In this document: one piece after another, positions 27,801 to 34,622 of the stretch | How positions within the stretch are numbered: position 1 is the stretch's first letter | Layout of the letters: every line of letters starts with the position of its first letter | DNA from: Caldimonas manganoxidans ATCC BAA-369 | GTDB taxonomy: Bacteria; Pseudomonadota; Gammaproteobacteria; Burkholderiales; Burkholderiaceae_C | Assembly: GCF_000381125.1 (NCBI RefSeq) | Contig: NZ_KB905931.1 | Location: 1 to 64,000, forward strand | DNA: 64,000 bases | Direction of reading: 5' to 3' | Position numbers and translations under genes: made by a program | The notes under the pieces: generated by a model | Told to the model about the DNA's origin: nothing | What the model saw: only the letters and a program-made list of their open reading frames with translations | Database searches by the model: none

Positions 27801-28139
27801 ATGGTCGACGTGGGAACGCTGGCGCAAGAGCATCGCGCCTTGGTGGCCTTGTATGGGCAGGTTCAAACCCGCTGCAGTGCGCAACTGCGGGAGCAGTCGC
27901 GGCGGATCCAATGTTTGGAGGCCGAGGTGATGCGCTTGCGCGCTGCCGTGATCGTGCAGCAAACGGCCTTGGCCATCGCGCAAGAAGAGCGCCGTCAGTG
28001 GGAAGCCGCGCTGCCAGGCTTGCCGCGGCGCATGGAGCTGAGCCGGCGCATCGAAGGCCTGGTCCAGCACCTGCAGTCTTTGTTGCGCGAACGCTCGCGC
28101 GCGGCATGGATGGTCATCGATCGACCCGGTCCGGGCTGA
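27801..28139 (+). CDS. Small coiled-coil protein of unknown function
   Basis: 112 residues, cytosolic-looking, almost wholly helical: repeated Leu/Ala/Gln/Arg heptads (QLREQSRRIQCLEAEVMRLR and following) suggest a coiled coil. No family recognised. ATG 27801 has GGGAGAG at a good distance; an ATG five codons upstream is less suited. It stands between a Fur-type promoter and the cobalamin riboswitch, so it may be the first gene of an iron-responsive transcript that continues into the riboswitch operon. Confidence 0.6.
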   Translation: MVDVGTLAQEHRALVALYGQVQTRCSAQLREQSRRIQCLEAEVMRLRAAVIVQQTALAIAQEERRQWEAALPGLPRRMELSRRIEGLVQHLQSLLRERSRAAWMVIDRPGPG

Positions 28140-28149
28140 TAGGATACGA

Positions 28150-28378
28150 CGGTCGGTGCTCGCAGTGCAGTTCATGCGCTGCAGTTCAACGGGAAGCTGG
28201 GGGGTGCCGTCCCATGCCGGTCGCACCTAACCAGCGCTGCCCCCGCAACGGTAAGTGGACGGAGACCGTGTCCTTGCTGGCACGCTCCAGCTTTCATCTG
28301 GCAAGCCACTGGTGATGCGCCTAGCGCATCGCCGGGAAGGCGATGAAGGTTGCATCCACCAGCCCGGATACCGGCCAA
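28150..28378 (+). promoter_or_regulatory. Cobalamin (B12) riboswitch
   Basis: The conserved landmarks are in order: AACGGGAA (about 28188), GCTGCCCCCGCAACGGTAA (28236-28254), GCCACTGG (28304-28311), GCCGGGAAGGCGA, and the B12 box AGCCCGGATACCGGCC (28361-28376). The aptamer ends about 90 bases before the DUF2796 gene, leaving room for an expression platform. Binding of adenosylcobalamin or related cobalamins normally shuts off the downstream genes, so this operon should be on when B12 is scarce. Confidence 0.95.
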
Positions 28379-28465
28379 CAGGGTGGCCCGGCCAATGTGC
28401 TGGGCCGTGAGGCTCATGCACCGTCGGGGAAGGCGGTGAGAGCGGATCTCTTTGCAGCGACCGTC

Positions 28466-29005
28466 ATGTTCGAGTCGTTTCGTCGCGCGCGTCGGGTGTC
28501 GCGCACCGGAGCCCGTCTTTGCGCGGGGCTGTCTTTGGTGCTTGCCTCCACCGTCTGGGCGCATGGCAGTCACAGCCACGGCCATGGTACGGTGCGTCTG
28601 GTGATAGAAGGCCACCACCTGACGGCCAGTTTCGATGTGCCGTTGGAGAGCTTTCTTGGCTATGACTACCCGCCGCAGGGCGCCGAGCAGGAGCAGGTGT
28701 GGCGGGCCTTCAAGGCCCGACTGCAGGACCCGACCCAGTTCATTCAACCCGCTGCCGAAGCCGACTGCCGCGTTCTGGGCCATGACCTCATGCCCGAGCT
28801 GACGCAGGCCGACCCGATGGGCGACATTCCCAACATCGTGTACCGCGTGCAGTTTCGCTGCCACCGTCCCGAGGCGCTGCAAGCGGTGGTGTTCACCGCG
28901 TTTGCCGATCATCCCGGCTTGAAGCAGTTGCGTGTGCAGCTCATCACGCCGCAGGGGCGCAAGACGGTCACGGTGCGCCCGCGCTTTCCGGCGCTGACGT
29001 TCTGA
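28466..29005 (+). CDS. Exported DUF2796 (ZrgA-like) protein with His-rich N-terminus
   Basis: 179 residues. A signal peptide (about residues 20-36, ending STVWA) is followed at once by HGSHSHGHG, a likely metal-binding stretch, then the DUF2796 body (RLVIEGHHLTASFDVPLESFLGYDY). Relatives are linked to zinc uptake (ZrgA); the ligand here could equally be cobalt. ATG 28466 has no strong ribosome site, which is compatible with the riboswitch acting on translation or transcription. First gene of the riboswitch operon; the ExbB-like gene starts 9 bases after its stop. Confidence 0.82.
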   Translation: MFESFRRARRVSRTGARLCAGLSLVLASTVWAHGSHSHGHGTVRLVIEGHHLTASFDVPLESFLGYDYPPQGAEQEQVWRAFKARLQDPTQFIQPAAEADCRVLGHDLMPELTQADPMGDIPNIVYRVQFRCHRPEALQAVVFTAFADHPGLKQLRVQLITPQGRKTVTVRPRFPALTF

Positions 29006-29014
29006 GGGGGACAC

Positions 29015-29479
29015 ATGCTGGAGCTGGGTTTCCTGCACATCGTGCAGTGGTTGCTGACGCCGGTGCTGGTGTTGTTGGCTTGTGCCTTGGCCTATGCCTT
29101 GTGGATGACCGGGGTGGTGGCGATGGAGGCTTGGCAGCGCCGCGTGCGGGGCTTTGCCTTGTTGCGCGGTGTCGATGCCTTGACGCTGGAGGAATTGGAA
29201 CTGCAGGCCTTGGCCCGTGTGGAGCCTTTGCGGCTGCTCAGTCGGGTCACGCCCATGCTGGGGCTGATCGCCACCATGATCCCCTTGGGCCCGGCCTTGC
29301 AGAGCGTGGCGCATGGGGATGGACGTGCGGCCTTGTCGGTGTTCAGTGGAGCATTTGCGGGCGTGGTGTTGGCGTTGACGGCCGCCTCTTTGGGCTTGGT
29401 GCTGCATTCGGTGCGCCGGCGCTGGCTGCTGGCCGAGCTGCTGGCGGTGAAGCGGGCGCGCGCGCAGGAGGGGGCATGA
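29015..29479 (+). CDS. MotA/TolQ/ExbB-type proton channel protein (HmuU-like)
   Basis: 154 residues, three membrane segments (about 10-32, 80-100 and 115-138). RVTPMLGLIATMIPLGPALQ is the ExbB/TolQ channel signature. It would couple proton flow in the inner membrane to work in the periplasm. GAGGGGG precedes the start. The stop overlaps the DUF2149 start (ATGA). In Bacteroidetes hmu operons a protein of this type stands beside a DUF2149 protein and the CobN-like HmuS, the same set as here. Confidence 0.87.
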   Translation: MLELGFLHIVQWLLTPVLVLLACALAYALWMTGVVAMEAWQRRVRGFALLRGVDALTLEELELQALARVEPLRLLSRVTPMLGLIATMIPLGPALQSVAHGDGRAALSVFSGAFAGVVLALTAASLGLVLHSVRRRWLLAELLAVKRARAQEGA

Positions 29480-29799
29480 GCCTGCGCCATTTCGAGGTCT
29501 TCGACGAGGACGACGATCCGATGTCGTCGGCCATCAACCTGGTGGACGTGTTCTTGGTCTTGGTGGTGGCCTTGCTGATTGCCGTGAGCATGGCTCGGCA
29601 GCATGAGGCCATGGCCGAGGGCGACGCAGCGCCGGACCTCGTGGTGCGAGAGCCGGGCCGGGAGGTGCGCTATCGCGGCAGCGGCTCGACCGGCGAAGGC
29701 CAGGGGGTACGCGCCGGCGTGGCTTATCGGCTGCGCGATGGCAGCATCGTCTATGTCCCTGAAGTCGCGTCCGCCCCGGACGCGTCAGCGTCCCGATGA
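29476..29799 (+). CDS. DUF2149 (ExbD-analogue, HmuV-like) membrane protein
   Basis: 107 residues with one membrane segment (SAINLVDVFLVLVVALLIAV, about 16-38) and a short periplasmic tail. The architecture is like ExbD/TolR: cytoplasmic start, one helix with an early aspartate, periplasmic domain. The DUF2149 assignment rests on SSAINLVDVFLV and the C-terminal GVRAGVAYRLRDGSIVYVPE. Both ends overlap its neighbours by four bases, so ExbB-like, DUF2149 and CobN-like proteins are made as a coupled set. Confidence 0.85.
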   Translation: MSLRHFEVFDEDDDPMSSAINLVDVFLVLVVALLIAVSMARQHEAMAEGDAAPDLVVREPGREVRYRGSGSTGEGQGVRAGVAYRLRDGSIVYVPEVASAPDASASR

Positions 29800-32700
29800 G
29801 CGTCTGGCACCGTTGGCTGCACGTGGTCGCGCTGGGATGGGTCTGTGGGCTTGGGCTTGGCAGCGCGGTGCAGGCGCGTACCTTGCTGTGGGTGACGATG
29901 GAGGTGACGCCGGCGTCTCGCACCGCGCAGGTCGAGCGTGTTGCGGCCGAGCGCGGCTGGCAGGTGCTGCACCTGGACCATCCCTTGCGGGACGACCCGG
30001 CCCGCGAGCCGGCGCAACGGCAGGCCATGGCCGAAGCGCTGGAGCGCGCCGACCTGGTGTGGGTCGATGCGCCGCATGCCACGGTGCTGGGGCGGCTGCA
30101 GCGCTCGTTCGGTGCGCTGTTCGATGCGCATGCGCGCCAGCACCCAGGTCGTCTGGTGTGGATCCTCGCGCACGAGCCCGCCGCCACCGTCGCCGAGGAC
30201 GTGGGCGGCCGCATGGCGGCTTATTTGCGCGCTGGCGGGAGGGCGAACCTGCGTCATGCCTTGCAGTTGGGTGAGGCTTGGTTGGACTGCGGTGGCTGTG
30301 ATGTGGCGGCGCTCGCGTCGGATCTGCCCGCGCCGCAGGCTTGGCCCTTGCGGGGCCTTTATCACCCGCAGGCGACGGGCTTTTTCGCCGATGTCCAGGA
30401 GTGGCGCCGCTGGCGGGGCGAGCGCGGGCATCGAAGCGAGGTGGCCGTGCTGGTGCATCGTCATCACTTCATCGACGGGGACACCGTCTGGCTGGACCGC
30501 TGGTTAAAGCTCTTCGAGGCCCAAGGCCTGGATGCCTATGCCGTCTTTGGTCAGCAGCTCGATGCCGGCGGGCTGCGCGATGTGCTGGGCGCCGCACCGC
30601 CGCGCTTGGTGGTCTTGCATCAGATCAGTTCGCAGTCGGCGGCCCTGCAGTCCTTGTTTCAAACCTGGGACGTGCCGGTGCTGGCCACGCAGCCTTATCG
30701 GCATGGCCCCACCGGTGCCTGGGAGCGCGACCCGACGGGTCTGAAATTGTCGGATGCCCCGTTCTATCTGGTGCAACCCGAGGCGGCCGGCGCGATCGAC
30801 CCGGTGGTGGTGACGGCCCATGCCGATGGGGGGCGGCAGGTCGAGTTGATCGAGCGCCAGGCTCAGGCGGTGGTGGACAAGGCGCGGCGCCTGCTGGCGC
30901 TGCGCGACACCCCGGCAGCGCACAAGCAGCTCGTGGCCATGGTCTACAACTATCCGCCCGGTGGCAGCCACTTCGGGGCGTCGTTTCTCAATGTGCCGCG
31001 CAGCTTGGAAGTGGTGAGCACCGCGCTGGCCGAGGCGGGCTACGCGGTGCGGCCGACCCGCGAGGCCGAGTGGATCGAGGGGCTGCGTCCGCTGTTGCGG
31101 GCCTACTATCCAGAGGCGGATCTGATCGACTTGCTGCGCAAGGACCAAGCCGCCGCCTTGCCGCTGCGCGAGTATCTCGCCTGGTGGCGCACGCTGCCCG
31201 AGCCGGTGCGTGCGCGCATCGCGGCCCGCTGGGGCGAACCTGCGGCCAGTCGTTATGTGGTGTCCTGGCGGGGCGAGCCGGTGTTCGTGATTCCCCGCAT
31301 GCGGGCCGGACACTTGTCGGTGCTGCCGCAGCCGCCGCGCGAAGAAACCTTGCGTCATGGTCAAAACCCCTTCATGCATCGCAGCCGCGAGCCCGTCTCA
31401 CACCATTACCTGGCGGTTTACCTATGGGCTCGACAAGCCCATGCGGTGATCCACTTCGGCACCCACGGCACGCAGGAATGGGCCAATGGCAAGGCGCGCG
31501 GGCTGGACGTGCATGACGATGCGCTTTTGCCACTGGGGGACGTGCCCGTGGTGTATCCCTACATCGTCGACAACCTCGGCGAGGCGCTCACCGCCAAGCG
31601 CCGGGGCCGCTCGTTGTTGGTCAGTCACCGCACGCCGGTGCTGTCCACCACCGCCTTGTCGCCGCCGATGGCACAACTGCATGAGCTGATGCACGACTGG
31701 GCCATGGCCGATGCCGGTCCGACGAAACAGCACATCGGCCAGCGCCTGGTGGACTCGATCGTCGAGCATCGTTTACACCTCGACTTGAAGTGGACGGTCG
31801 ATCAGCTGCATGCTCGCTTGGATGAATTCCTCGAAGTGCTGCACCCGTGGTTGGACCAGCTGGCCCATGCCAGCCAACCGCAGGGCTTGGCCGTGTTCGG
31901 ACGCGCGCCTGAGGAGTCCGCGCGGCGCGCGATGGTGCTGCAGGCGCTGCGCACCCCGCTGCTGGATGCGCTGGGCGAGGACGTGGACGAAACCTTCCTG
32001 ATCGATCATCGGCAGCTGGCCCAGTCGCGCCCGATGCGCTGGCTGGATGTGGCGCTGCGCGATGCGCAGGCCGCCAGCCAGCTCGATCTGCGGCCAACGG
32101 CTCCGCCCAGCACCGTGCCCAACCGGGCGGCCGTGCATGCCATCGACCGCGAGGCATTGCGCGCGCTGGCCGAGCAGGCGCAGGCGTTGGACCGGCTCTA
32201 TGCCACCGAGAATGAACTCAACGGCCTGCTGGCCGCGCTGGAAGGGCGCTTCGTGCCAGCCGCCTATGGAGGCGATCCGCTGCGCAACCCCGACAGCCTG
32301 CCCACCGGGCGCAACCTCACCGGGTTGGACCCCAGCCGCTTGCCCACACGCCAGGCCTACACGGTGGCGCAAGTGCTCTTTGAGCAATGGCTGGCCCAGT
32401 GGCGCCAGGCCCATGCGGGGCGTGCGCCCCGGCGGCTCGTGTTGTCCCTGTGGGCCGGCGAAACCCTGCGCCATCATGGGATCATGGAGGCGCAGGCCCT
32501 GGTGGCCTTGGGTGTGCGGCCGGTGTGGGATGCCGCAGGGCGCCCCACGCGCGTGGAGGTGATTCCCGATGAGCAACTGGGGCGGCCTCGGGTCGATGTC
32601 CTGCTCAGCGTCACGGGGTCTTATCGCGATCAGTTTCCGGCGCTGATGGCCCTGATCGATGCCGCGGTGGCGCAGGTCGGCGCGGCCGACCCGGGCGGTG

Positions 32701-33860
32701 TGGTGGCGCAGCACAGCCAAGCCGTGGCCGATGAGCTGCAGCGCCAGGGCGTGCCGGCGGAACGAGCACAGCGGCTGGGGCAGGCGCGCGTGTTTGGCAA
32801 TGCGATGGGCGACTACGGCACGGGGCTGAGCGAGGCCGTCCAGGACGACCGGTTGCAAGCGCGGGACGATCGGCTGGGTGAGCTGTTTTTGCAACGCATG
32901 GGGCAGCCTTACCTCGGCGGAGAGCCCGTGCCGGACATCGACGCGATGCAGGCTGCGCGCGCCTTTGGGGCGCAGTTGAAGCGGGCCGATGCCGCGATAC
33001 TGTCGCGCAGCTCGCATCTGTACGGCATGGTCACCTCCGACGACCCGTTCCAGTACCTCGGTGGACTGGCCGCGGCGGCCCGTCGGGCGGGCCGATCGGA
33101 GCCCTTGCCCTTGTTCGTGCACCAATTGCACAACGCCGATGAGCCCCATGCCCAGACGGCCGCGCAGAGCGTGGCGCTGGAGATGCAATCGCGCTACCTG
33201 CATCCTGGATGGGTGAGGGCGCAGAAGGACGAGGGCTACGCGGGTACCTTGCAGGTGCTCAAGGCCGTGCAGTTCCTCTGGGGCTGGCAAAGCGTGACCG
33301 AAGGCGTGGTGCGCCCCGACCATTGGCAAAGCCTGCACGAGGTGTATGTGAAGGACCGGCTGGGGCTGGGCGTGGCCAGTTGGCTGCGCAGCCATCCACA
33401 GGCCTATGCCCAGGTGATCGAACGGTTGATCCAGGCGCAGCGGCATGGTCACTGGACGCCCGATGCGGCCACCAGCCGCGCACTGGCCGAGCTTTATCGT
33501 GAGCTGACGCGCCAAGCGCCCTTGTACCAGGAGCTCGCCGGCGTGCGCGCCTGGGTGGACCGTGCCCTGACGGCTGCGGCCGCGCATGGCGCGCGAGGCG
33601 TCTCCCGCGGGGCCGAAGCCGCCTCGGTGCAGCCCATGTTGCAGCCCATGTCGGCGCCGCCGCAGGCTGCACCGGCCGCGGCGGATGCCACCGCCACGTG
33701 GGTGCCGGTCAAGGGTGAGAGGCTGGAACCCGTGTCAGGGCCATCGCAGAGCCCGGCCGAAGCGCTGACGGCTTGGCTGGCACTGATGCTCATGCTCGGC
33801 CTGGTCTTGGGTGGCGCTGTGCAGCAGTGGCAACGCGCAAGGCGGACCTACGCCGTCTGA
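29796..33860 (+). CDS. Exported, membrane-anchored CobN/HmuS-like chelatase
   Basis: 1354 residues of the CobN/magnesium-chelatase H family. Conserved blocks: AMVYNYPPGGSHFGASFLNVP, VIHFGTHGTQEWANGKARGLD, LPTGRNLTGLDPSRLPTRQA, LSLWAGETLRHHGIMEAQAL, VFGNAMGDYGTGLSEAV, SSHLYGMVTSDDPFQYLGGL and LKAVQFLWGWQSV. Unlike cytoplasmic CobN it begins with a signal-peptide-like segment (about 5-27) and ends with a membrane helix (about 1325-1346) and RRTYAV tail. No CobS/CobT or ChlI/ChlD partners lie nearby. With the ExbB-like and DUF2149 genes this matches HmuS-type haem dechelatases; B12 control points to a corrinoid or cobalt tetrapyrrole (inference). Confidence 0.9.
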   Translation: MSVWHRWLHVVALGWVCGLGLGSAVQARTLLWVTMEVTPASRTAQVERVAAERGWQVLHLDHPLRDDPAREPAQRQAMAEALERADLVWVDAPHATVLGRLQRSFGALFDAHARQHPGRLVWILAHEPAATVAEDVGGRMAAYLRAGGRANLRHALQLGEAWLDCGGCDVAALASDLPAPQAWPLRGLYHPQATGFFADVQEWRRWRGERGHRSEVAVLVHRHHFIDGDTVWLDRWLKLFEAQGLDAYAVFGQQLDAGGLRDVLGAAPPRLVVLHQISSQSAALQSLFQTWDVPVLATQPYRHGPTGAWERDPTGLKLSDAPFYLVQPEAAGAIDPVVVTAHADGGRQVELIERQAQAVVDKARRLLALRDTPAAHKQLVAMVYNYPPGGSHFGASFLNVPRSLEVVSTALAEAGYAVRPTREAEWIEGLRPLLRAYYPEADLIDLLRKDQAAALPLREYLAWWRTLPEPVRARIAARWGEPAASRYVVSWRGEPVFVIPRMRAGHLSVLPQPPREETLRHGQNPFMHRSREPVSHHYLAVYLWARQAHAVIHFGTHGTQEWANGKARGLDVHDDALLPLGDVPVVYPYIVDNLGEALTAKRRGRSLLVSHRTPVLSTTALSPPMAQLHELMHDWAMADAGPTKQHIGQRLVDSIVEHRLHLDLKWTVDQLHARLDEFLEVLHPWLDQLAHASQPQGLAVFGRAPEESARRAMVLQALRTPLLDALGEDVDETFLIDHRQLAQSRPMRWLDVALRDAQAASQLDLRPTAPPSTVPNRAAVHAIDREALRALAEQAQALDRLYATENELNGLLAALEGRFVPAAYGGDPLRNPDSLPTGRNLTGLDPSRLPTRQAYTVAQVLFEQWLAQWRQAHAGRAPRRLVLSLWAGETLRHHGIMEAQALVALGVRPVWDAAGRPTRVEVIPDEQLGRPRVDVLLSVTGSYRDQFPALMALIDAAVAQVGAADPGGVVAQHSQAVADELQRQGVPAERAQRLGQARVFGNAMGDYGTGLSEAVQDDRLQARDDRLGELFLQRMGQPYLGGEPVPDIDAMQAARAFGAQLKRADAAILSRSSHLYGMVTSDDPFQYLGGLAAAARRAGRSEPLPLFVHQLHNADEPHAQTAAQSVALEMQSRYLHPGWVRAQKDEGYAGTLQVLKAVQFLWGWQSVTEGVVRPDHWQSLHEVYVKDRLGLGVASWLRSHPQAYAQVIERLIQAQRHGHWTPDAATSRALAELYRELTRQAPLYQELAGVRAWVDRALTAAAAHGARGVSRGAEAASVQPMLQPMSAPPQAAPAAADATATWVPVKGERLEPVSGPSQSPAEALTAWLALMLMLGLVLGGAVQQWQRARRTYAV

Positions 33861-33938
33861 CGTATTCCGAAGCTCTTGGTCCTTCATCACGCTGGGGTTG
33901 CTGGCGTGCCACGCCGCTGGATCGTGGGGGGCGCCAGT

Positions 33939-34090
33939 TGGTGCAGCTGAATACGGCGCTGGTGCTGGTGACGCACGATGACGACATCGCGACTGCGGTG
34001 TCGTCGCGGGTGTTGCGCTTCGGCGAATCCGGCTGGGCCGAAGTCCCTGCAGCGAAGGCCGCCGCGGCCGAACCCGTGGGCGCCATCTGA
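33939..34090 (+). pseudogene. C-terminal remnant of an ABC transporter ATPase
   Basis: The frame reads RQLVQLNTALVLVTHDDDIA, then SSRVLRFGESGW, which matches the switch-histidine loop and end of LolD/MacB-type ATPases (normally ...LNRELGTALVLVTHD...). No Walker A, signature or Walker B motif precedes it. It lies just after the CobN-like gene and runs up to the convergent folA. Best read as a deletion remnant of an ABC ATPase gene. Confidence 0.6.
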
Positions 34091-34091
34091 A

Positions 34092-34622
34092 TCAGGGCTC
34101 GTCGGGCACGGGGGGCGGGCGGCGCTGGTAGGTCACGAAGTGGTAGCGCCAGCCTTCGGGCGAGGTATGGGTTTCGCGTGCGACTTCGGTGAAGGCTGCG
34201 CGGTCCCAGACGGGAAAGTAGGTGTCGCCCTCGAAGTCGTGGTCGATCTCGGTGAGGACCAGCTCGTCGGCCCAGGGCAGGGCTTCGGCATAGACCTGGG
34301 CGCCGCCGATCACGTAGATCTTGGTGGCGTGCTTGAGGAGCTCCAGCGCAGCTTCGAAGGAGGGGGCTTCCTCGATGCCTGGGGCTTCCCAATGGATGTT
34401 GCGGGTGATGACCACGTTGCGCCGGCCTGGCAGTGGCCGACCGATGGACTCGTAGGTTTTGCGCCCCATCAGCACGGGGCAGCCCATCGTGACCCGCTTG
34501 AAGTGCTGCAGGTCTTCGGGCAGATGCCACGCGAGCTGGTTGTTGCGACCGATCACGCCGTTGCGCGCCACGGCGGCGATGAGGGCGATCTGCGGGCGGT
34601 CCGATGGAAGAGCTTGGCTCAT
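34092..34622 (-). CDS. folA: Dihydrofolate reductase
   Basis: 176 residues. IALIAAVARNGVIGRNNQLAWHLPEDLQHFK, GRKTYESIGRPLPGRRNVVITR and IYVIGGAQVYAEALPWADEL are the DHFR signatures; it reduces dihydrofolate with NADPH. ATG 34622 follows the family N-terminus; upstream codons are not conserved-looking. Last gene of thyA-eamA-folA; thymidylate synthase upstream produces the dihydrofolate this enzyme recycles. Confidence 0.95.
   Translation of the reverse strand: MSQALPSDRPQIALIAAVARNGVIGRNNQLAWHLPEDLQHFKRVTMGCPVLMGRKTYESIGRPLPGRRNVVITRNIHWEAPGIEEAPSFEAALELLKHATKIYVIGGAQVYAEALPWADELVLTEIDHDFEGDTYFPVWDRAAFTEVARETHTSPEGWRYHFVTYQRRPPPVPDEP

Follow-up and report, generated by a model that had tools for sequence, protein, structure and literature searches.

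A cobalamin-riboswitch operon of Caldimonas manganoxidans with a predicted periplasmic CobN-like protein and an ExbB/DUF2149 pair: a probable chelatase-type step in corrinoid salvage

The first 64,000 nucleotides of contig NZ_KB905931.1 of Caldimonas manganoxidans ATCC BAA-369 (the window) contain an operon in which a cobalamin riboswitch is followed by a zrgA-like, an exbB-like, a DUF2149 and a cobN-like gene. The operon probably provides a periplasmic chelatase-type step in corrinoid salvage, in whichever direction the metal moves, with a dedicated ExbB/DUF2149 pair at its side. The riboswitch, the gene order, the predicted export and anchoring of the CobN-like protein, its fold and kinship, the link to corrinoid salvage and the failure to find CobS and CbiC were computed here, while the motor and its partner, the substrate, the metal and the direction of the reaction are what we infer.

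The operon is closely packed and consists of the following elements, in this order:

28137-28393, + strand: cobalamin riboswitch aptamer RF00174 (62.7 bits against a gathering score of 31.5, E 3.8e-13)
28466-29005, + strand: zrgA-like gene for an exported His-rich DUF2796/ZrgA metal-binding protein (PF10986, E 5.9e-30)
29015-29479, + strand: exbB-like gene for an ExbB/TolQ/MotA-like channel protein of 154 amino acids (family profile evidence)
29476-29799, + strand: DUF2149 gene, for which an ExbD-like role is proposed (PF09919, E 6e-16)
29796-33860, + strand: cobN-like gene for a class I chelatase subunit of 1354 amino acids (PF02514, E 2.5e-254)

The aptamer match is complete over model positions 1-189 and lies above the gathering score. 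Nine nucleotides separate zrgA from exbB, and the exbB/DUF2149 and DUF2149/cobN-like pairs each share four. The zrgA start at ATG 28466 is our choice, the alternative ATG at 28343 falling within the aptamer. An earlier sequence-only reading of the window had named a cobalamin riboswitch, an exported His-rich DUF2796 protein, an ExbB-like channel and a DUF2149 protein, all of which were borne out: the riboswitch by the complete RF00174 match, the DUF2796 protein by its membership of the known ZrgA metal-binding family, the DUF2149 protein by its PF09919 match, and the ExbB-like channel by way of its family.

Relatives of the CobN-like protein were examined as the best 80 of at least 589 confirmed matches, a sample that consequently leans to close relatives, and comprise type A (33 named loci plus the source locus) and type B (47 loci). 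The source protein itself matches PF02514 over residues 142-1226 and passes the NCBIfam model NF004644, "cobaltochelatase subunit CobN", with 1417 bits against a cut-off of 1248. Its N-terminus shows a hydrophobic core from residue 10 followed by AVQA and its C-terminus a hydrophobic stretch from residue 1326, both called by simple hydropathy rules rather than by SignalP; the protein is thus predicted to be exported and C-terminally membrane-anchored, in agreement with the signal peptide and C-terminal helix read earlier. The same rule finds the N-terminal core in 30 of 34 type A proteins (the others being L065, L067, L075 and L076, with L067 truncated there) and the C-terminal stretch in 33 of 34 (L065 is truncated there), as against 38/44 and 41/44 in type B, 4/4 and 4/4 in four divergent exported proteins, and only 1/5 and 0/5 in cytoplasmic CobN. 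A predicted structural model of residues 29-1225 (predicted local distance difference test, pLDDT, 88.5; predicted template modelling score, pTM, 0.87) has as its closest folds in the PDB Mycobacterium tuberculosis CobN (7c6o, template modelling score, TM, 0.81) and then HmuS (9d26, TM 0.78), and VIA-align ranks them alike, with Z 45.5 over 1072 residues for MtCobN and Z 39.7 over 1003 for HmuS. The head and neck of the model look like periplasmic binding proteins (VIA-align rows at Z 8-9), a likeness also noted in PMC12583661 (papers are cited by such identifiers). As modelled, the protein has a complete class I chelatase body, yet by the defining features it is no HmuS.

Kinship was inspected in two FastTree phylogenies, the first of 89 sequences and 1012 columns rooted on ChlH, the second of 78 sequences including two plasmid relatives. 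Five canonical cytoplasmic CobN proteins form their own clade with support 1.0 in both, and type A is one clade, again with 1.0, in the first. The source protein falls in a zrgA branch with L065-L068 (1.0), nested among the forms with long operons, and hence not among cytoplasmic CobN, which was the outcome that a tree of CobN, HmuS and this protein had been proposed to decide. HmuS and the exported CobN-like proteins group with support 0.874 in the first tree and 0.574 in the second, where the exported CobN-like proteins without HmuS hold together at 0.992. The second tree also places L177 within type A and Trichlorobacter lovleyi L178 with L051/L052 (1.0), with G116 (L053) apart. A riboswitch or other B12 link is accordingly seen in three lineages of CobN-like protein, and its presence in three separate lineages argues that the link is real. 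The predicted export, the lack of a CobS match and the position outside the canonical clade together uphold the earlier view that cytoplasmic cobalt chelation is unlikely. No refuting condition that the earlier reading had set for itself came true.

The combination of CobN-like, ExbB-like and DUF2149 proteins is, as the earlier reading had stated, the hmuS/hmuU/hmuV set (PMC10434189, PMC13227078). HmuS has been proven to be a haem dechelatase; according to its authors, reliable annotation is out of reach for most of the remaining sequences (PMC12583661). With HmuS and its HmuU/HmuV partners (hmuYRSTUV in Bacteroidota) the source system shares the class I fold, predicted export and membrane anchoring at both ends (a hydropathy prediction), adjacent ExbB-like/DUF2149 genes and the H534/H538 motif, HFG(T/A)HG, whose two histidines (H553/H557 here) are invariant in all rows counted; an RxS loop is likewise common to the source protein and HmuS, and not to CobN. 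The two systems differ in control (iron there, a B12 riboswitch here) and in accessory proteins (HmuY/HmuR/HmuT there, ZrgA here). A place for the operon in the haem-dechelatase family was not supported, as the sequence features that define HmuS are absent. The residue aligned to HmuS His254, of a His-Gly-Arg motif, is Leu or Ile in 34/34 type A proteins and His in 13/44 of type B, in a stretch where the alignment is uncertain, and the HmuS motif LSLDHxxEFMGG reads TSDDPFQYLGG in the source protein. HmuS His1209 and Glu1212 are replaced by Asp and Gln (the D/Q pair) in 34/34 type A and 5/5 canonical CobN proteins; type B has D in 27/44 and H in 17/44 at the first site, and Q in 26/44 and E in 17/44 at the second. 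The Met-rich insertion of about 120 residues was not seen, as judged indirectly from 179 residues between the matched stretches against 325 in HmuS and from a model that contains no long low-confidence insertion. HmuS membership was rejected since the His254 ligand, the second axial His and the Met-rich insertion are all missing. Type B proteins with an HmuS-like His at position 1083 include those of Pseudomonas and Stutzerimonas (e.g. loci L126 and L135), and, judging by these residues, the His and Asp groups of type B may differ in reaction direction.

The putative motor proteins are better recognised as families than singly. The ExbB-like protein has no Pfam match at E<=0.1 and reaches MotA_ExbB only at E 0.7, but each of the 17 sequences in its family alignment reaches MotA_ExbB at E<=1 (the strongest at 4.9e-12), and a PDB search with the family profile brings up MotA (E down to 6.4e-4), TolQ and ExbB; three hydrophobic segments begin at residues 17, 81 and 112. 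The DUF2149 protein carries a single membrane helix with an Asp, D24, invariant in 26/26 sequences, and an Asp in the membrane helix is a feature of ExbD and TolR. Direct matches of the family to ExbD are weak (3/26 members, best E 0.056; TolR in the PDB at E 1.4), and its structural model is of low confidence (pLDDT 67, pTM 0.31). Across 66 loci, evolutionary distances of the CobN-like protein correlate with those of the ExbB-like (r 0.94) and DUF2149 (r 0.90) proteins (0/999 permutations), values that partly reflect species history as well.

The ZrgA-like protein scores 104.8 bits with PF10986 against a gathering score of 27.4 and does not reach the ZrgA equivalog NF047873 (56.2 against 185 bits). 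Its relatives in the PDB are PA4063 (E 2.1e-8), which binds Zn or Co (PMC11481552), and Vibrio cholerae ZrgA (E 1.3e-4), whose site-1 ligands are His35, His37 and Glu66 (PMC9820375). A His-x-His, an Asp and two Cys are invariant in 4/4 aligned sequences, and H37, H39 and D68 of this alignment (A3, numbered from one codon before the ZrgA ATG) were matched by eye to those three ligands. The protein thus shares PF10986, a His-rich N-terminus and the Cys pair with ZrgA of Vibrio zrgABCDE and PA4063, and differs in that it has Asp for V. cholerae Glu66 and lacks the long His loop in the centre, that neither ZrgB nor ZrgC is encoded beside it in the operon, and that control is by B12.

A CobN-like relative is encoded in 57 out of 250 genomes from the order, mostly two candidates per genome having been scored, so that paralogues may be missed. 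Twelve genomes besides the source show matches along most of the protein (36-62% identity), the remaining matches being weaker (27-38%), many as shorter pieces; of the 12 loci fetched from those twelve genomes only L037 has a cobalamin riboswitch by cmscan. Type A spans Thauera, Parazoarcus, Azonexus, Acidovorax, Xylophilus, Leptothrix, Aquabacterium, Roseateles, Pelomonas, Mitsuaria, Variovorax, Polaromonas and others. The exbB-DUF2149 pair stands ahead of cobN in 31/33 named loci (32/34 with the source), L067 being cut by a contig end and L081 a real exception. A riboswitch lies upstream in 28/33 by motif and in L074 by cmscan (30/34 with the source), and the four loci where none was detected (L067, L077, L084, L086) are all cut by contig ends. 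These operons usually hold cbiA amid btuB, cobU, btuFCD, btuR and cbiB, with cbiA within the locus in 28/33 and a BtuB match upstream in 26. The four-gene form with zrgA recurs in L065, L066 and L068, each with a cmscan riboswitch; a Comamonadaceae plasmid carries the minimal form riboswitch-exbB-DUF2149-cobN, and G116 the run riboswitch-btuB-btuR-cbiA-cobN-exbB-DUF2149-bluB-btuF-cobU. This riboswitch and salvage-operon context of the type A relatives strengthens the link to corrinoids that had been drawn from B12 control of the source operon.

Type B is arranged differently, exbB-DUF2149 following cobN in 44/47 loci and preceding it in one, with two cut loci in which it is missing, and a receptor matching the BtuB query lies upstream in 40/47. 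The motif script found no same-strand riboswitch in any of the 47, a soft negative given that it recovered 7/10 of the riboswitches known from cmscan; cmscan itself found none in L101, in L126 or in 11 other exported-type loci of the 250-genome set.

Further B12 genes are found elsewhere in the source genome (3.53 Mb, listed as 100% complete, with a single PF02514 protein). A second riboswitch, at C50, leads btuB-btuC-btuD-btuR-cbiA, and cbiP, cbiB, cobD and btuF lie at about 203-208 kb of C2, the names btuB, btuC, btuF and cobD denoting best matches below the curated cut-offs. The statement that no other cobalamin-synthesis gene is present thus stands for the operon and not for the genome, which has both late B12 and uptake genes. 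CobS (TIGR01650), for which a genome-wide search had been suggested, was not matched anywhere in the genome; CobT and ChlI/ChlD were not searched for. The corrin-ring marker CbiC/CobH was also not found in the genome, which by that marker does not make the corrin ring. The organism looks like a salvager that keeps the late half of the B12 pathway. CobQ is present in 33/34 type A genomes and CobS above its cut-off in 0/34; among genomes with exported CobN-like proteins, CobS exceeds the cut-off in G083, while G158 and G176 reach 530 and 490 bits.

In the mechanism that we favour, low B12 would open the riboswitch of an operon repressed by B12. The corrinoid would enter via BtuB and be bound in the central cleft of the CobN-like protein, around H557, and the chelatase would be moved by proton flow through ExbB/DUF2149. 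This pair would be a dedicated proton motor taking over from the cytoplasmic CobS/CobT ATPase, which could not use ATP in the periplasm. ZrgA, in this lineage, might hand over the metal ion, and the product would be imported via BtuF/BtuCD and finished by CbiA, BtuR, CbiP and CbiB. The direction we tentatively prefer, at well below an even chance, is that cobalt would be put into metal-free or wrongly metallated corrinoids. It is suggested by the D/Q pair, which CobN also has in place of the His/Glu of HmuS, by MtCobN as the closest fold, by ZrgA, which might donate the metal, and by the late-pathway gene set, with CobQ and without CobS above the cut-off, that stands behind the CobN-like step. 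More doubtful is the form of this proposal in which the protein is a cobaltochelatase of class I that has exchanged its ATPase motor for an ExbB/DUF2149 proton motor and that inserts cobalt into scavenged corrins, metal-free or wrongly metallated, in the periplasm.

Several observations weigh against a salvage chelatase of this kind. A CbiA survey of the 250 genomes gave 46 with a CbiA-type match, 16 with CbiC and 30 without, and only five of the latter (G000, G171, G116, G025, G072) have a B12-linked CobN-like protein. CbiA was split by eye, with matches above 350 bits set aside as another subfamily, which we take to be DsrN-like, and a partial match in G170 omitted; G025 and G072 were counted as B12-linked solely from adjacent cobN and cbiA, without a riboswitch scan. 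Since the other 25 lack such a protein, CbiA in salvagers needs no such enzyme, and the idea that CbiA marks the salvage of metal-free corrins was unsupported in these genomes; a published figure puts cbiA in 46% of precursor salvagers (PMC6461909). In vitro, HmuS as an isolated protein released iron from haem with NADH (PMC12583661), so that a motor is not strictly needed there; the ExbD homology of DUF2149 is unproven; and free metal-free corrins in the periplasm are an assumption. The D/Q pair, being common to most type B proteins (27/44 with D, 26/44 with Q), is not specific to B12 and was rejected as a B12 signature. The gene zrgA occurs in only 3/33 named type A loci, sought solely by tblastn with the source protein at E<=1e-5, such that distant ZrgA may be missed. 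In L081, from a Giesbergeria metagenome-assembled genome, a cobN-like gene lies in a B12 operon with no exbB/DUF2149 at the locus, which offers a natural case for testing the need for the pair. In eight type A Variovorax genomes, CobS-like proteins score 511-524 bits, short of the cut-off of 558.55. CbiC is present in 5/33 named type A genomes, of which two have the zrgA form, in a count that includes metagenome-assembled genomes whose completeness is not established, and in 6/17 type B genomes tested, which counts against forcing an insertion reading.

Other explanations were weighed against the same evidence. The CobN-like protein could perform no metal chemistry and act as a corrinoid receptor or carrier, ExbB/DUF2149 energising capture or the hand-over from BtuB to BtuF. 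Its place among btuB, btuF, btuC and btuD and the binding-protein character of its head and neck would suit this role, yet we consider it unlikely: H553/H557 of the cleft are kept in every aligned sequence, HmuS, whose partners are the same, has been proven to be an enzyme, and btuF and tonB sets are already present. A smaller probability is given to an HmuS-like dechelatase that takes cobalt or a wrong metal from a corrinoid or another tetrapyrrole, a proposal overlapping with the favoured one as long as direction is left open. The replacement of HmuS His1209/Glu1212 by D/Q throughout type A speaks against it, as does the poor timing of destroying corrinoids under B12 limitation, and the grouping with HmuS that favoured it in the first tree (0.874) drops to 0.574 in the second; the trio shared with hmuS/U/V and the HmuS-like RxS loop, unlike CobN, count for it.

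Slightly less probable again is cobalt (or zinc) acquisition, in which a receptor would import a metallophore complex, the CobN-like protein strip the metal and ZrgA collect the ion. The ZrgA family does bind Zn/Co, the related Pseudomonas aeruginosa operon PA1922-1925 is zinc-regulated (PMC4542158), and three type A operons include a siderophore-type receptor with a PepSY protein; 28/33 named type A genomes and the source genome nevertheless show no CbiC and little evident cobalt need, and zrgA is rare in type A. That the protein is a standard CobN, part of the cobaltochelatase CobNST of the cytoplasm, is scarcely credible. The NF004644 match and the annotation of the closest plasmid relative as cobN would say so, but the predicted signal and anchor, the failure to find CobS and CbiC in the source genome and the separate canonical clade (1.0) led us to reject it. 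CobN of CobNST shares the fold (TM 0.81 to 7c6o) and the D/Q pair with the source protein, and differs in being cytoplasmic and ATP-driven.

B12-linked relatives are already in print, in Geobacter lovleyi (2012) and, second-hand, in the 2003 BtuS proposal. BtuS is a third CobN-like kind proposed by Rodionov in 2003, as cited in PMC6460266; by description, the only ground of comparison, it shares with the source protein its position apart from CobN/ChlH, a periplasmic membrane-anchored location and a proposed salvage role, and differs in that BtuS1/BtuS2 of Bacteroides fragilis were tested for haem iron. The cluster of Geobacter (Trichlorobacter) lovleyi pSZ77/pGLOV01 was reported as containing CobN without CobS/CobT, role unknown (PMC3403914). 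It shares the cobalamin riboswitch, exbB, DUF2149, cobN-like gene and nearby B12 genes with the source operon, and differs in lineage, in adding exbB-exbD-tonB, two receptors and DUF2162, and in lacking zrgA. Its exbB-DUF2149 pair stands beside a full exbB-exbD-tonB set, which argues that the pair is not simply the receptor's energiser. PA1922-1925 is a zinc-starvation, Zur-controlled operon (PMC4542158) which, compared by description and not by sequence, shares a CobN-like protein, an ExbD-like protein and a TonB receptor with type B, and differs from the source operon in its zinc control and in having the receptor inside the operon. A literature search covering few subscription papers found no B12-riboswitch CobN/ExbB/DUF2149 system in Betaproteobacteria; nor did it meet any account of how widespread the B12-riboswitch form is, how its genes are ordered, that it occurs in separate lineages and in a variant with zrgA, or that its residues set it apart from HmuS.

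The neighbours of the operon are unrelated, with an endonuclease/exonuclease-family gene and a sigma-54 response regulator 5' and dihydrofolate reductase 3', and terminator-like sites in 27900-34200 show no excess over chance (4 against 3.2 expected). Long B12 operons with a siderophore-type TonB receptor and PepSY_TM after btuR were seen in L037 (1164-3332), L063 (13597-15141), L071 and L077, and a TonB receptor directly follows the cobN-like gene in L078 and L096. Azonexus hydrophilus carries, at L068:13998-17195 and beyond, a second DUF2149/exbB/cobN-like set on the opposite strand with TonB-receptor matches, adjoining its B12-riboswitch set. The Variovorax genomes with CobS-like proteins (L087-L092, L094, L095) are all without CbiC. 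In the source genome, a cobalamin riboswitch of 100.5 bits at L005:6176-6382 (G000:C13:66175-66381) lies directly 3' of metE on the same strand, an unusual placement, and precedes an open reading frame with a 4HBT thioesterase domain.

This protein is named a cobaltochelatase subunit of B12 synthesis both by the NCBIfam model and in the annotated records examined, and B12 scavengers can thereby look like makers. Should the salvage interpretation be right, haem-iron extraction, a zinc-starvation operon and B12 salvage would be joined as one membrane-anchored periplasmic chelatase class, and a direct test would be at hand of whether class I chelatases can run on a proton motor instead of their AAA+ motor. 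If, further, cobalt were inserted into scavenged corrins by such a motor, HmuS, the Zur-controlled relatives and the B12 form would be one family of proton-driven periplasmic chelatases, and bacteria unable to build the corrin ring would finish B12 from rings discarded by their neighbours. The testable idea is thus raised that metal-free or mismetallated corrins may be traded between bacteria.

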